This document shows, piece after piece, positions 39,821 through 49,477 of a stretch of DNA of 64,000 nt. The DNA comes from a gamma proteobacterium HIMB30 (GTDB lineage: Bacteria > Pseudomonadota > Gammaproteobacteria > Pseudomonadales > Litorivicinaceae): assembly GCA_000227525.2 (NCBI GenBank), contig AGIG01000028.1, forward strand, positions 62,001 through 126,000, in the 5' to 3' direction. The notes under the pieces are model-generated. The model ran no database searches and had not been told where the DNA came from. It was given only the letters and a program-made list of their open reading frames with translations. Both the position numbers and the translations under genes were made by a program. The number at the start of each line of letters is the position of its first letter. The stretch's first letter is position 1.

Positions 39821-40690
39821 TTGGCCCAATATCGTGGTCGGTTTGCACCCTCGGCGACCGGCCCGTTGCATCTCGGGTCCATTCTTGCTGCACTTGTTAG
39901 CTACATTCATGCAAAACAGCATCATGGTGAGTGGCTGATTCGCATTGATGATCTTGACGAGAAGCGATGTAAACAAATCCATGTTGACTCGATCCTTGAA
40001 TGTCTAGATGCGTTTGGGTTCAGGCCGTCTGGATCGGTTTGTCGGCAAACAGATCGAATAACGGACTACCAAAACGCACTGGTTTCACTCGACAATCAGA
40101 GACGCCTTTATCCATGTACTTGCACTCGGAAATCACTACTGAAAGGGCCTTATCCCGGGTTTTGTCGTCATCAAATCGGCCAGACCTTGATCGCAGAGAG
40201 TGCGGTGCGAATTGACACCAGTGACATGGACCTGACGGTCGATGATCTGATTGCGACCTCATCCATCATCCAGCCGCCCGGAGATTTTATCGTCAAGCGA
40301 CGTGACGGACTCTTCGCCTATCAACTGGCGTGTGCGGTTGATGAGCAGATCGATGGAATTACGCATGTGATCAGAGGAATTGATCTTCTTGATTCAACGC
40401 CCATGCAGCGATTCATTACACAATGCCTTGGATATGAGAGCCCCACATATGGGCATTTTCCCGTCTTAGTCGGTGCCGATGGGGCAAAGCTATCCAAACA
40501 AACATTCGCTGAACCTGTGGATTGGACTCGCCCAGGTGAGACGTTCGCCGTGATTGCGCGACTACTGTTACTTAACGATACACCCAGGCCGACCGATCAC
40601 GCACACGTCTGGTTAGACTTCTTTGTCTCGTTGGACAATCTCATCCCAAAGCTTATCAAGGCCTCACACGCCAATACCCTTTCGCTCTAG
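39821..40690 (+). CDS. gluQ: Glutamyl-Q tRNA(Asp) synthetase
   Basis: Paralogue of the GluRS catalytic domain that attaches glutamate to queuosine in the anticodon of tRNA-Asp. The 289-residue protein lacks the anticodon-binding domain of GluRS. The HIGH-like motif is PSATGPLHLGS (residues 10-20) and the KMSKS-like motif is AKLSKQ. A Cys/Tyr zinc site is suggested by CTCTRKSL and YPGFCR. The start is TTG 39821, 4 nt after dksA, without a clear Shine-Dalgarno, so translation may depend on dksA. Confidence 0.95.
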   Translation: MAQYRGRFAPSATGPLHLGSILAALVSYIHAKQHHGEWLIRIDDLDEKRCKQIHVDSILECLDAFGFRPSGSVCRQTDRITDYQNALVSLDNQRRLYPCTCTRKSLLKGPYPGFCRHQIGQTLIAESAVRIDTSDMDLTVDDLIATSSIIQPPGDFIVKRRDGLFAYQLACAVDEQIDGITHVIRGIDLLDSTPMQRFITQCLGYESPTYGHFPVLVGADGAKLSKQTFAEPVDWTRPGETFAVIARLLLLNDTPRPTDHAHVWLDFFVSLDNLIPKLIKASHANTLSL

Positions 40691-40724
40691 AACCTCGTAA
40701 ACTACCCCACAAATAGGGATGCTT

Positions 40725-42053
40725 ATGGCGACGCTACTTCTCGTTACAGACGAAGCTATTATTCGAAAGTCGATTCAACTCGGGCTCGAGCAGCGAGGAC
40801 ATCAGGTGTTGACCGCCGAGTCGGTCAAAGAAGCGATGTCCCAGGTCAAAGACATCGATTGCGTTGTTTGTGAGCATCGGCTTGCCGACGGATCAGGGAT
40901 TGATTTGATAGCTCACTTCAAACCCATACCATTGATTTTACTTGTCGGCCAGGTATCCCTCCAAGCCGGAATCTTGGCAATGCGAAAAGGCGCTTTCGAC
41001 TGTTTCACCAAGCCTGTTGATCACAATGATTTGCTTCGATCGATCGAAAAAGCGACAGCGAAGAGATCCGCGAAAAGCACAGACATGATGATTGGACAGA
41101 GTGAAGTGATGCTGCAATTAAAAAAGCAGGTTTCACGAGTCGCCCCTCTCGATACAACAATCTTAATCGGAGGTGAATCCGGGACAGGCAAAGAACTGGT
41201 GGCAAAATCCATTCATCAAATGTCCTCACGATCGGAAAAAGACATGGTTTCAGTCAACTGTGCAGCGATTCCAGAATCACTCATTGAAGCCGAGCTCTTT
41301 GGTCACGTGAAAGGCGCATTTACGGGTGCAACACAGGATAGGGCTGGGTTAATCGAATCCGCAGACGGATCGACGCTCTTCTTGGATGAAATCGGGGAGC
41401 TCCCATTAGAAGCTCAATCTCGATTACTCAGAGTGCTTCAGGAAGGCGAGATTCGCAAAGTGGGTAGCACCGACCGGACATATGTCAATGTTCGATTGGT
41501 TGCCGCAACCCATCGGAATTTGCTGGATATGGTCTCCAAGGGCCAATTTCGAGAAGACCTCTATTACCGACTCAATGTGATCGAGCTGAGATGTCCACCA
41601 CTCAGAGATCGTGGTCAAGACATCATGGTTCTTGCCGAAGCTCTTCTTGACAGGGTCAAACATCAGATGAATCGACCCGAACTGAAATTTAACAGCAGCA
41701 TCCAGACGTCGATTGAAAGTCACCCATGGCCTGGTAACGTTCGAGAACTCGGCAATGTCATCGAAAGAGCAGTGGTCTTGTGTGAGGGTCCTTTGATTGA
41801 TCAATCGGATCTTGGACTCACAAATGTGCCCGATACGAATCACACGTTTGCTGCCAAGGAACAACGACCAATGGGTCGCACTCAGCCAATGATGTCACTG
41901 GAAGACTATTTTCAACATTTTGTGTTGTCCCATGAGGACCAAATGAGTGAAACCGAGCTGGCCAAGCGCCTTGGTATCAGCCGAAAGAGTCTTTGGGAGC
42001 GGAGAAATCGCTTGGGTATTCCTCGGCGTAAAGACGAGTCGCAAGATTCGTAA
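40725..42053 (+). CDS. CbrB-like sigma-54-dependent activator with degenerate receiver domain
   Basis: NtrC-type enhancer-binding protein of 442 residues. A receiver domain (about 1-115) is followed by a sigma-54 AAA+ domain with Walker A GGESGTGKE, the GAFTGA loop contacting sigma-54, Walker B TLFLDEIGEL and Arg-finger FREDLYYRLNV. A Fis-type helix-turn-helix (ETELAKRLGISRKSLWERRNRLGI) ends the protein. In the receiver, the first acidic-pocket residue is Thr8, the phosphoacceptor Asp is Glu50 (CEHRLADGSG) and the switch Thr is Val74, while Lys96 is kept. Its position between gluQ and pcnB is that of CbrB in Pseudomonas, but cbrA is absent. ATG 40725 has AGGGA 5 nt upstream; ATG 40719 is possible. 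Confidence 0.9.
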   Translation: MATLLLVTDEAIIRKSIQLGLEQRGHQVLTAESVKEAMSQVKDIDCVVCEHRLADGSGIDLIAHFKPIPLILLVGQVSLQAGILAMRKGAFDCFTKPVDHNDLLRSIEKATAKRSAKSTDMMIGQSEVMLQLKKQVSRVAPLDTTILIGGESGTGKELVAKSIHQMSSRSEKDMVSVNCAAIPESLIEAELFGHVKGAFTGATQDRAGLIESADGSTLFLDEIGELPLEAQSRLLRVLQEGEIRKVGSTDRTYVNVRLVAATHRNLLDMVSKGQFREDLYYRLNVIELRCPPLRDRGQDIMVLAEALLDRVKHQMNRPELKFNSSIQTSIESHPWPGNVRELGNVIERAVVLCEGPLIDQSDLGLTNVPDTNHTFAAKEQRPMGRTQPMMSLEDYFQHFVLSHEDQMSETELAKRLGISRKSLWERRNRLGIPRRKDESQDS

Positions 42054-42071
42054 CACCTATCTGCTACCTAG

Positions 42072-42111
42072 GGTAACGATTGGTAACGTTTTTTCTCGAA
42101 AAAAAGTTACC
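42072..42111. promoter_or_regulatory. Candidate enhancer (UAS) for a sigma-54 activator
   Basis: GGTAACG occurs at 42072-42078 and again at 42082-42088, ten bases (one helical turn) apart. The inverted GTTACC lies at 42106-42111; with the second copy it forms GGTAAC-N18-GTTACC. It is about 100-140 bp upstream of the predicted start point, the usual distance for enhancer sites. The A/T tracts between the arms could also form a hairpin in RNA. Confidence 0.55.
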
Positions 42112-42185
42112 TATAAGTCTAACGCTTCTGGTCGCTTATTTAGAAAAATTCGATAAATCCGTCACTTATGGGAAATGCTCTAAAT

Positions 42186-42201
42186 TGGCACGGCATGTGC
42201 A
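42186..42201 (+). promoter_or_regulatory. Sigma-54 (-24/-12) promoter
   Basis: TGGCAC-GGCAT-GTGCA: the -24 element TGGCAC is perfect, GG and GC are separated by exactly 10 nt, and the -12 element has one mismatch to TTGCA. Start of transcription is expected near 42212. No coding sequence follows closely. Confidence 0.8.
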
Positions 42202-42211
42202 ACCATATTCT

Positions 42212-42487
42212 GTGTTCGTAATAAGACCAATAAAAAAGAACAGAAACAGCGAGAATTATAAAAAGATTGCTGAACGAGATTACGGTTCACTGTGAGAACT
42301 GAGTTTCACGGAAGCAGAAACGCTTCCTTAGGCCGATAACAATAAAAAAGCGTAAAGCTAAGGCCTTAGTTGCCTCGATGGTAATTTGAGACTGAGATTG
42401 CACACTGAAAGGTAATTTCAATTAGTGCAAATAATAAAAATAAAGAACAATGCACAATGATTAAAAGGGGCGAAAGCCCCTTTTTTA
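42212..42487 (+). ncRNA. crcZ: CrcZ-like small RNA (Hfq/Crc-sequestering candidate)
   Basis: Intergenic transcript unit of about 275 nt between the CbrB-like gene and pcnB, the place of CrcZ in Pseudomonas. It starts at a sigma-54 promoter and ends at a strong intrinsic terminator, with no convincing reading frame. Four AAnAAnAA motifs, the kind bound by the distal face of Hfq with Crc, lie at 42229-42236, 42338-42345 (AACAATAA), 42430-42437 (AATAATAA) and 42443-42450 (AAGAACAA). Between them are hairpins, for example GGAAGC-N6-GCTTCC at 42310-42327 and TTGCAC...GTGCAA at 42398-42430. CCTTAG/CTAAGG can pair with the second motif in its loop. Expression and function are inferred; primary sequence identity to known CrcZ was not tested. 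Confidence 0.72.
42467..42486 (+). terminator. Intrinsic terminator of the CrcZ-like RNA
   Basis: Stem GGGGC/GCCCC closed by a GAAA tetraloop and followed by six T; an A-run before the stem can extend the pairing. Confidence 0.9.
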
Positions 42488-42498
42488 TTAATGGGCTC

Positions 42499-42507
42499 TG
42501 GTATCAT
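42499..42507 (+). promoter_or_regulatory. Candidate extended -10 promoter for pcnB
   Basis: TGGTATCAT, an extended -10, begins 12 nt after the sRNA terminator and 36 nt before the pcnB TTG, giving a leader of about 20 nt. Confidence 0.45.
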
Positions 42508-42534
42508 TCCGTCTTGTGCCATTGGAGTCTTCTA

Positions 42535-43863
42535 TTGTTTTCGGTGTTCAAAAAGAAATCTGCTCGGAGTGCGCACATCTTTAAAGATGTCGTGACCCAG
42601 GAATACCACGGAATTAATGACCGAGATCTATCGCATGGCAGTTTACGTGTCATTGAAATCCTTCAACATGCAGGATATGAAGCCTATCTTGTTGGTGGAG
42701 GAATTCGAGATTTGTTACTCGGAAAACATCCGAAAGACTTCGATGTTGCCACCAGCGCCAAACCAGTTGAAGTCCAGAAACTATTTCGGAAAGCGCGCAT
42801 CATCGGACGACGCTTTCAAATCGTCCATGTTCGCATGGGGCCTGAAATCATTGAAGTGACAACCTTTAGAGGTTCTGCTGAAAATAGCCATCTACAGCAA
42901 GCCAATGCATCGGGCATGTTGGTTCGAGACAACGTCTTTGGTTCGGTTGAGGATGATGCTGTGCGCCGTGACTTCACAATGAATGCGCTCTACTACGATC
43001 CATCGAACCATGAAGTACTCGACTTTGTTGGCGGCTACGATGATCTCGAGGATGGAATGATTCGAATCATTGGTGATCCTGAAACCCGCTACCGAGAAGA
43101 TCCTGTACGCATGCTTCGCGCTGTGAGATTCGTTGGGAAGTTGGGTCTCCAGCTCGAACCTGACACAGCAGAACCCATTCGCCGACTCGCTCCCCTTTTA
43201 AGAGATGTCTCCCCCTCGCGGCTATTTGATGAAATCTTAAAGTTACTTCAGGCAGGTCACGGTCAAGCAACGTTTCCTGAACTCGTCAAATACGATCTGT
43301 TACGACCATTGTTTCCGCAAACTGAAGCTTTGTTAAGCGAGGCCGATGATCAACACCACCAACATTTGATTGATCTCGCTCTTTTAAACACTGATACAAG
43401 ATTAAATGAAGGCAAGTCAGTGACTCCCGCATTTTTATATGCAGCACTTCACTGGCCCCAGGTTCAGCATCGGTGGGAAGAGCTCGAGGCTGAGGGACAT
43501 GGACGCACACAGGCCCTTACGATCGCATGCTCTGAAACCCTAGACTTTAATCAGCAATTCATTGCGATACCCAAACGTTTCAGCGTCACCATCCGAGAAA
43601 TCTGGGAGCTGCAAGTGAAGCTAGAAAAGCGACATGGCCGTCGCCCAGACTCAACCCTTGAGCATCCGAGGTTCCGTGCCGGGTATGACTTCCTTCTGCT
43701 ACGTGAACGCTCCGGAGAAATCCCAGGTGGGCTTGGCGAATGGTGGACGCAGTATCAAATTGCTGACGATGCGATGCGTCGTGACTTGATCGCATCAGTC
43801 AAAGATGATCAGAACGAATCCAAAGTACGGCGTCCGCGCAGACGATCGAAACGCCGTGACTAG
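42535..43863 (+). CDS. pcnB: Poly(A) polymerase I
   Basis: Adds poly(A) tails to RNA 3' ends, promoting decay by PNPase. The nucleotidyltransferase core has YLVGGGIRDLLLGKHPKDFDVATSA with catalytic Asp68 and Asp70, RRFQIVHV, and RDFTMNALYYD. A basic C-terminal tail follows (RRPRRRSKRRD). The start is placed at TTG 42535 (MFSVFKKK), with GGAG 7 nt upstream. The longer ATG at 42457 lies before the sRNA terminator and is not credible. Length is 442. It overlaps folK by 8 nt. Confidence 0.94.
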   Translation: MFSVFKKKSARSAHIFKDVVTQEYHGINDRDLSHGSLRVIEILQHAGYEAYLVGGGIRDLLLGKHPKDFDVATSAKPVEVQKLFRKARIIGRRFQIVHVRMGPEIIEVTTFRGSAENSHLQQANASGMLVRDNVFGSVEDDAVRRDFTMNALYYDPSNHEVLDFVGGYDDLEDGMIRIIGDPETRYREDPVRMLRAVRFVGKLGLQLEPDTAEPIRRLAPLLRDVSPSRLFDEILKLLQAGHGQATFPELVKYDLLRPLFPQTEALLSEADDQHHQHLIDLALLNTDTRLNEGKSVTPAFLYAALHWPQVQHRWEELEAEGHGRTQALTIACSETLDFNQQFIAIPKRFSVTIREIWELQVKLEKRHGRRPDSTLEHPRFRAGYDFLLLRERSGEIPGGLGEWWTQYQIADDAMRRDLIASVKDDQNESKVRRPRRRSKRRD

Positions 43864-48218: not shown

Positions 48219-48488
48219 TTAACGGCGCAGACCAAGTTCCTTGATCAATGCTGCATAACGGCCCAGATCCTTTGACTTCAGATAGTCGAGCAACTTCCGA
48301 CGCTGGTTAACCATTCGAATCAAACCACGACGGCTGTGGTGATCATGAATGTTCTTTTTAAAGTGGCCTTGTAATGCTTCGATGTTTGCAGTCAATAAAG
48401 CGACTTGAACTTCCGGTGAGCCCGTATCGTTTCCACCACGGCCAAACTTTTCAACGATTTCAGCTTTCTTCTCTACTGATAAAGCCAT
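48219..48488 (-). CDS. rpsO: 30S ribosomal protein S15
   Basis: Primary 16S rRNA-binding protein of the 30S platform. The 89-residue protein shows the full family pattern: [19 protein letters not shown] (residues 15-33), [30 protein letters not shown] and the closing [17 protein letters not shown] lies upstream of the ATG. It is placed between truB and pnp, the common gammaproteobacterial order. Confidence 0.99.
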
Positions 48489-48520
48489 TTTTTCCTACTC
48501 CTACAATGGCATGCCCGACC

Positions 48521-49477
48521 TCATTGGCCAGAATCCGAACTGCCGCGCATGCCAGCAGCAGCCGGAGATAACATCCGTTTTGCAGTAATCATCCCGCTAG
48601 ACTCGACGGAAACAAGTCCGATAAACGGACCTCCTGCAAAATAAGCGCGCGTATTATCGCACACATCGACTGGTTTACCAGAAACTTTTTGCCCTTGAAT
48701 CAATATCCTGCATTCATTTTCGGTCAAATCAATCCGTGGAAAATGACTGAGGATTGCATCAACCGGCAACAACGACGAATCAATTCGCGAAGGCTCATTG
48801 TCTTGAAGGGACTCAAGTGCATTCCATGCATGCGCCTGCTCAAGCGAGAACCCACCCGACAGATCGCGCCGTAATTGACTCAAATGGGCGACAGAACCCA
48901 GTGCGTCACCAATCGATTCAGCAAGGCTTCTGATGTAGGTCCCTTTTGAACATCGAACACAAATATCAATCCAACCTTCGCTTGCATCAAACTGCATGAG
49001 GTCATTACTAAAGATTTGAATCGAGCGAGGTGAGCGTTCCACCTCTTTTCCTTGTCGAGCTAATTTATACAGGGGTTGCCCTTGGTACTTCAGCGCTGAC
49101 ACCATTGGCGGTACCTGCATCTGAGCACCTGTCAATGTGGACAGCACAGTGGCGATCTTCGATTCAGTTAATTCCGGAATCGGCTTGACTAAAACAACAT
49201 TGCCATCGGCATCCAGCGTATCAGTTGCAGAACCGAGTTGAATCCGCGCCAAATACCCTTTATGAGCATCCAAGCCGTATTGACTGAATTTTGTCGCTTC
49301 CCCAAAGACAATCGGCAAAACCCCAGTCGCCATGGGATCCAGTGCCCCTGTATGACCTACTTTTTTGGCTTGAGACCACCGTTTTAAACGACTGACCACA
49401 CCATTAGATGTCAAACCTTGAGGCTTATCCACAATGAGGATCCCGTTTAGATCGCGACCCTTGTTGCGTTTACTCAT
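48521..49477 (-). CDS. truB: tRNA pseudouridine55 synthase
   Basis: Forms pseudouridine 55 in the T-loop of tRNAs. The 318-residue enzyme has GILIVDKPQGLTSN (about residues 12-25) and the catalytic Asp in GHTGALDPMATGVLPI. A C-terminal PUA-like part follows. The ATG shares bases with the rbfA stop (TGATG), indicating coupling. rpsO follows after 32 nt. Confidence 0.98.
   Translation of the reverse strand: MSKRNKGRDLNGILIVDKPQGLTSNGVVSRLKRWSQAKKVGHTGALDPMATGVLPIVFGEATKFSQYGLDAHKGYLARIQLGSATDTLDADGNVVLVKPIPELTESKIATVLSTLTGAQMQVPPMVSALKYQGQPLYKLARQGKEVERSPRSIQIFSNDLMQFDASEGWIDICVRCSKGTYIRSLAESIGDALGSVAHLSQLRRDLSGGFSLEQAHAWNALESLQDNEPSRIDSSLLPVDAILSHFPRIDLTENECRILIQGQKVSGKPVDVCDNTRAYFAGGPFIGLVSVESSGMITAKRMLSPAAAGMRGSSDSGQ

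Follow-up and report, generated by a model that had tools for sequence, protein, structure and literature searches.

The interval between a CbrB-type activator gene and pcnB very probably encodes an orthologue of the small RNA CrcZ, a decoy for Hfq and Crc, with a CbrB that is probably active without phosphorylation. The RNA locus occupies positions 42186–42487 of the window, as we call the whole stretch of 64,000 nt of HIMB30 DNA that was analysed, and lies inside a gap (42054–42534) that separates the gene of the CbrB-type sigma-54 activator from pcnB. From the sequence, we infer that the RNA is transcribed, that CbrB activates it, that it titrates Hfq and Crc and that this activity is constitutive. 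The features of the locus, given in window coordinates, are the following.

39821–40690, plus strand: gluQ (gluQRS), from NCBIfam GluQRS equivalogs and synteny.
40719–42053, plus strand: CbrB-type sigma-54 activator with degenerate receiver and intact AAA+ and C-terminal HTH, from Pfam and alignment with order-wide CbrB.
42061–42094, plus strand: GTAAC repeats resembling CbrB subsites (TGTTAC / GTAACA), from the sequence; subsite sequences from PMC6296734.
42186–42201, plus strand: −24/−12 promoter TGGCACGGCATGTGCA, from the consensus match; conserved in 12 of 16 congeners plus L084.
42214–42487, plus strand: predicted CrcZ-type small RNA, from fold (z −6.9), covariation and covariance model R1.
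42214–42241, plus strand: hairpin P1 (GTTC/GAAC), AAnAAnAA motif in the loop, from alignment, covariation and motif mapping.
42247–42272, plus strand: hairpin P2, A-rich loop with a motif that is degenerate here, from fold, covariation and motif mapping.
42275–42308, plus strand: central long stem, 5′ arm GAGATTACGGTTCACTGTGAGAACTG, nearly invariant, from conservation and covariation.
42310–42327, plus strand: hairpin P4, both-side changes in 4 of 6 pairs.
42330–42366, plus strand: hairpin P5, AAnAAnAA motif in the loop, from covariation and motif mapping.
42368–42386, plus strand: hairpin P7, from covariation.
42387–42420, plus strand: central long stem, 3′ arm AGATTGCACACTGAAAGGTAATTT, nearly invariant, from conservation and covariation.
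42425–42455, plus strand: hairpin P8, AAnAAnAA cluster in the loop, from both-side changes in 4 of 5 pairs and motif mapping.
42463–42484, plus strand: intrinsic terminator, 9 pairs plus T-run.
42535–43863, plus strand: pcnB, probable TTG start with GGAG upstream, from NCBIfam pcnB; start region conserved in the genus.

In the proposed mechanism, the CbrB-type protein made from the gene immediately 5′ of the locus would activate the sigma-54 promoter from which the RNA starts, and transcription would stop at the intrinsic terminator before pcnB. The A-rich hairpin loops would bind the distal face of Hfq together with Crc, and this sequestration would free catabolic mRNAs from translational repression. 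With the kinase CbrA gone, a CbrB carrying a phospho-mimicking Glu would activate without phosphorylation, and the RNA output would be set by the level of CbrB or the state of the promoter, not by CbrA signalling.

The original prediction had recognized a CrcZ-like position between a CbrB-like gene and pcnB, and this is borne out by the Pfam and NCBIfam assignments and by synteny. Its stretch of about 275 nt lacking a credible reading frame also holds, as we found no credible ORF in the interval between the two genes, and the strong terminator it described is present. The near-perfect −24/−12 promoter was confirmed as well: TGGCACGGCATGTGCA agrees with the consensus at 11 of 12 positions and is the only plus-strand match of at least 10 positions in the window. 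Matches of at least 11 positions are expected 0.35 times per shuffled window; such a match by itself is weak in 64 kb, and it is the position and conservation that carry weight. The sigma-54 promoter is kept across the genus apart from three lineages, and the 5′ end of the RNA is predicted at about 42212–42214. The upstream GTAAC repeats are conserved, with a spacing of 10 bp compared with about 20–25 bp (mostly 21–23 in other families), that is, one helical turn in the genus and two in the other families.

A conserved −10-like element (TGGTATCAT, 42499–42507, with TATCAT at 42502–42507) lies 3′ of the terminator. Together with the conserved TTG at 42535 and its GGAG, this element suggests the true start of pcnB and a separate pcnB promoter. 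The mechanical pcnB ORF begins within the terminator region (window 42457–42535). If the interval were instead part of the pcnB mRNA, as an untranslated leader or an attenuator, and yielded no free RNA, its place directly 5′ of pcnB and its terminator would be accounted for, as would the arrangement in G033, where about 2.3 kb separate cbrB from the RNA unit and the latter still adjoins pcnB. However, the conserved −10-like element and the TTG start with GGAG follow after the terminator, and the RNA shows no competing anti-terminator fold, its minimum-energy structure being the same as the centroid structure; we regard a pcnB leader as extremely improbable.

The RNA of the window folds with −79.1 kcal/mol, compared with −47.7 ± 4.6 for shuffled sequences (z −6.9). 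An alignable RNA of 268–279 nt is present in 16 congeneric genomes, and the alignment supports 71 pairs in nine helices with 95.1% paired cells. Both sides have changed in 29 pairs, a number reached by none of 500 shuffles (mean 13). When the structure was slid along the alignment, the paired cells dropped to 30–48%, a control biased in favour of the structure because the latter was taken from the same alignment; the double changes are less affected. Because of this conservation and covariation in 16 congeners, the RNA is clearly more than chance, and a chance origin is ruled out by the covariation together with the order-wide conservation described below.

Four AAnAAnAA motifs spread over hairpins had been predicted. 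Three strict clusters exist in the window genome (42229–42240, 42338–42348 and 42430–42450), fewer than in many relatives, while the fourth motif, AATTATAAAAAGA in the second hairpin loop at about 42255, is degenerate here and strict in 14 of the 16 congeners. Over the 16 sequences, 115 of 118 occurrences fall within the four hairpin loops. In a sequence this rich in A, the number of motifs by itself departs only mildly from Markov shuffles (p 0.02 when occurrences are counted and 0.17 when clusters are).

The long central stem pairs two nearly invariant blocks, and its sequence is more conserved than a pure decoy requires, which makes a further function possible. A former CrcZ orthologue might even act now mainly via this duplex, by binding protein or RNA, with the loops as remnants or serving only to load Hfq. 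Such a shift would agree with the near invariance of both arms, in which 14 of the 28 pairs never vary, and with the persistence of the RNA in some species beyond promoter and cbrB. Yet the A-rich loop motifs are kept too, in 10–15 of the 16 sequences per loop, and Crc is kept in the same genomes, including those that lack cbrB, and we find this reading improbable. The role of an Hfq/Crc decoy is the reading with the best support.

The original prediction had also warned that homology searches might miss the RNA. Indeed, Rfam at its gathering threshold gave no match in the RNA interval. The CrcZ model RF01675 scored 16 bits (E 0.036 in the own genome), short of its gathering cut-off of 95 bits; the locus is nevertheless the best place in the genome for this model, over its full length. 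Near-matches to other Rfam families (sraA, STnc40 and a snoRNA) were discarded, as they seem to reflect the terminator or chance similarity of A-rich sequence. Elsewhere in the window, a ribosomal S15 leader (RF00114) was detected at 48432–48538 on the minus strand with a score just above the cut-off.

The covariance model R1, trained only on sequences of this genus, gave a single strong match (E below 1e-47) per genome in 19 of 22 congeners. The three others (G007, G017 and G021) lack an assembled pcnB locus, and the absence of a match there is no evidence that the RNA was lost. No second CrcZ-like copy was found by R1 in the own genome. Outside the genus, R1 recovered the RNA at the syntenic place in its sister genus (E 1.6e-6 and 1.2e-4) and in four genomes of other families (G031, G173, G094 and G071); weak order-level matches elsewhere than at cbrB/pcnB were treated as background.

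The expected partners were identified in the genome: both hfq and crc, for which a search had been proposed, were found. The hfq gene (E 1e-29) has Pseudomonas aeruginosa Hfq as its best PDB match, relative to which Tyr25 is replaced by Phe. The rpoN gene is present, split over two contigs. Crc, encoded between rph and pyrE, has an ExoIII fold, with 2myi (E 1.4e-59) and Crc 4jg3 (E 4.7e-57) as best PDB matches, and occurs in 20 of 22 congeners, including genomes without cbrB. The Crc sequence has lost catalytic residues, with replacements of the His and of the Asn in the GDxN motif. Taken together, these partner genes (hfq, rpoN and crc) and the features of the locus itself, namely its position, promoter, A-rich loops and terminator, support the CrcZ architecture that had been proposed.

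The CbrB-type protein shares 44–55% identity with CbrB of other genera and families. Its AAA+ domain and C-terminal HTH (SLEDYFQ...LGISRK.LWERR) are intact. In the receiver, the phospho-acceptor Asp is replaced by Glu (DCVVCEHRL) in 14 of 14 congener receivers, compared with Asp in other families; the switch Thr (LLVGQ) and one acidic residue are lost as well. Only about 30 bp lie between the end of gluQ and cbrB, the place that cbrA occupies in other families, and a full-length CbrA (SSF, PAS and histidine kinase) was found in none of six genomes of the genus (its own and five congeners). The CbrA of a sister-genus genome (G024) is short and lacks the transporter part, and in G026, which is only 75% complete, no cbrA lies beside cbrB and the receiver is intact. 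Marinomonas and G049 lost cbrA independently, with a receiver that is degenerate too. L058 and L143, of Marinomonas type, show independent loss of cbrA with retention of the RNA and of a CbrB with degenerate receiver. Four congeners (L067–L070) contain frames for SSF-containing kinases of 837 to about 1,320 amino acids that are 31–33% identical to the N-terminal half of CbrA; by sequence, these are possibly CrbS-like sensors.

The D54E exchange in NtrC mimics phosphorylation; many Asp-to-Glu changes are inactive. Because there is no CbrA kinase and Glu replaces the phospho-acceptor Asp, activation by CbrB in this genus is, by analogy, probably phosphorylation-independent. Alternatively, the RNA would be a CrcZ orthologue whose CbrB is regulated by another kinase or a small molecule, and it would still answer to the carbon state. 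The receiver domain has been retained rather than deleted and SSF-containing kinases exist in the genus, both in keeping with this alternative; the uniform Glu, the loss of the switch Thr and of the acidic residue, and the lack of a CbrA orthologue in the six genomes speak against it, and we consider it rather unlikely.

Loss of the sigma-54 promoter amounts to three changes on the PcnB tree: one in L014, one in L024 and one in the clade L021/L022/L083/L085. An assembly artefact is an unlikely cause in the clade of four genomes and a possible one in the single genomes L014 and L024. In L083, cbrB is a pseudogene, and in L085 only a C-terminal remnant is left; RNA and Crc are retained in this lineage. 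Decay of cbrB is confined to a promoter-less lineage, as expected if the RNA is the main target of CbrB. From this order of losses, it would seem that CbrB was kept chiefly for the sake of the RNA, and that the RNA is useful without CbrB. In the promoter-less species, the RNA could be transcribed from a sigma-70 promoter or processed from a longer transcript. Sigma-70-like −10 elements (TGnTTTACT), read by eye only, precede the RNA in L021, L022, L083 and L085. In rpoN mutants of Azotobacter vinelandii, CrcZ* arises by processing from a longer transcript (PMC6292655).

We tentatively propose, as a scenario that may well prove wrong, that carbon catabolite control was hard-wired in this marine lineage: loss of the kinase would have led to a phospho-mimetic activator, promoter and activator would then have been lost in derived species, and what remains would be an Hfq/Crc decoy that is made permanently and strongly selected for, its invariant central duplex perhaps serving a second purpose. 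The genus represents a natural experiment in which the kinase and the phospho-acceptor disappear first, the promoter next and the activator last, and the RNA stays. Whether Hfq/Crc requires an antagonist that is always at hand thereby becomes a testable question.

The arrangement is not restricted to this genus, and its spread, like the missing kinase and the altered receiver, goes beyond the original prediction. Among 28 genomes from other families, 24 have a sigma-54 promoter followed by AAnAAnAA motifs downstream of cbrB (0.11 expected), and in most of these 24 pcnB comes next; the distance from promoter to motif in the order is mostly 27–31 nt. Named carriers are Halomonas, Litchfieldella, Onishia, Marinobacter, Gilvimarinus, Dasania, Neptunomonas, Pseudohaliea and Marinomonas, names that point to Pseudomonadales as defined by GTDB. 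Two tandem units of sigma-54 promoter and AAnAAnAA motifs occupy the cbrB-pcnB place in L043, L050, L057 and L133, like a CrcZ/CrcY pair side by side. At 307 bits, the RNA at this place in a genome of another family (G043) is the Rfam CrcZ; of those named loci that were scored with Rfam, Pseudomonas and Serpens alone reach the CrcZ cut-off. Reviews describe CbrAB and CrcZ as unique to the Pseudomonadaceae (PMC8871633, PMC6296734), and in open-licence PMC papers on Halomonas or Marinobacter we found no description of CrcZ outside that family; we provisionally regard the order-wide spread as novel. Because about two dozen further families share the unit, catabolite control by a decoy RNA is probably an ancient, order-wide trait that escapes the Pseudomonas-based RNA model.

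Compared with Pseudomonas CrcZ (RF01675), the locus shares the position between cbrB and pcnB, the sigma-54 promoter, the AAnAAnAA motifs, the terminator and the presence of Hfq and Crc. It differs in length (about 275 nt here, about 400 nt there), in the loss of most sequence similarity (16 bits against the 95-bit cut-off), in its long conserved central stem, and in lacking CbrA and a phospho-acceptor in CbrB. CrcY and CrcX of Pseudomonas and Azotobacter belong to the same class of CbrB/sigma-54 driven Hfq/Crc decoys and are located elsewhere in the chromosome, whereas this genome has one copy only. From the CbrAB two-component system, the CbrB orthologue with intact AAA+ and HTH and the conserved neighbourhood remain, while in this genus the kinase is lost and the receiver degenerate. 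CrcZ* of the Azotobacter vinelandii rpoN mutants (PMC6292655) stems from a laboratory mutant, whereas here the promoter was lost in three natural lineages.
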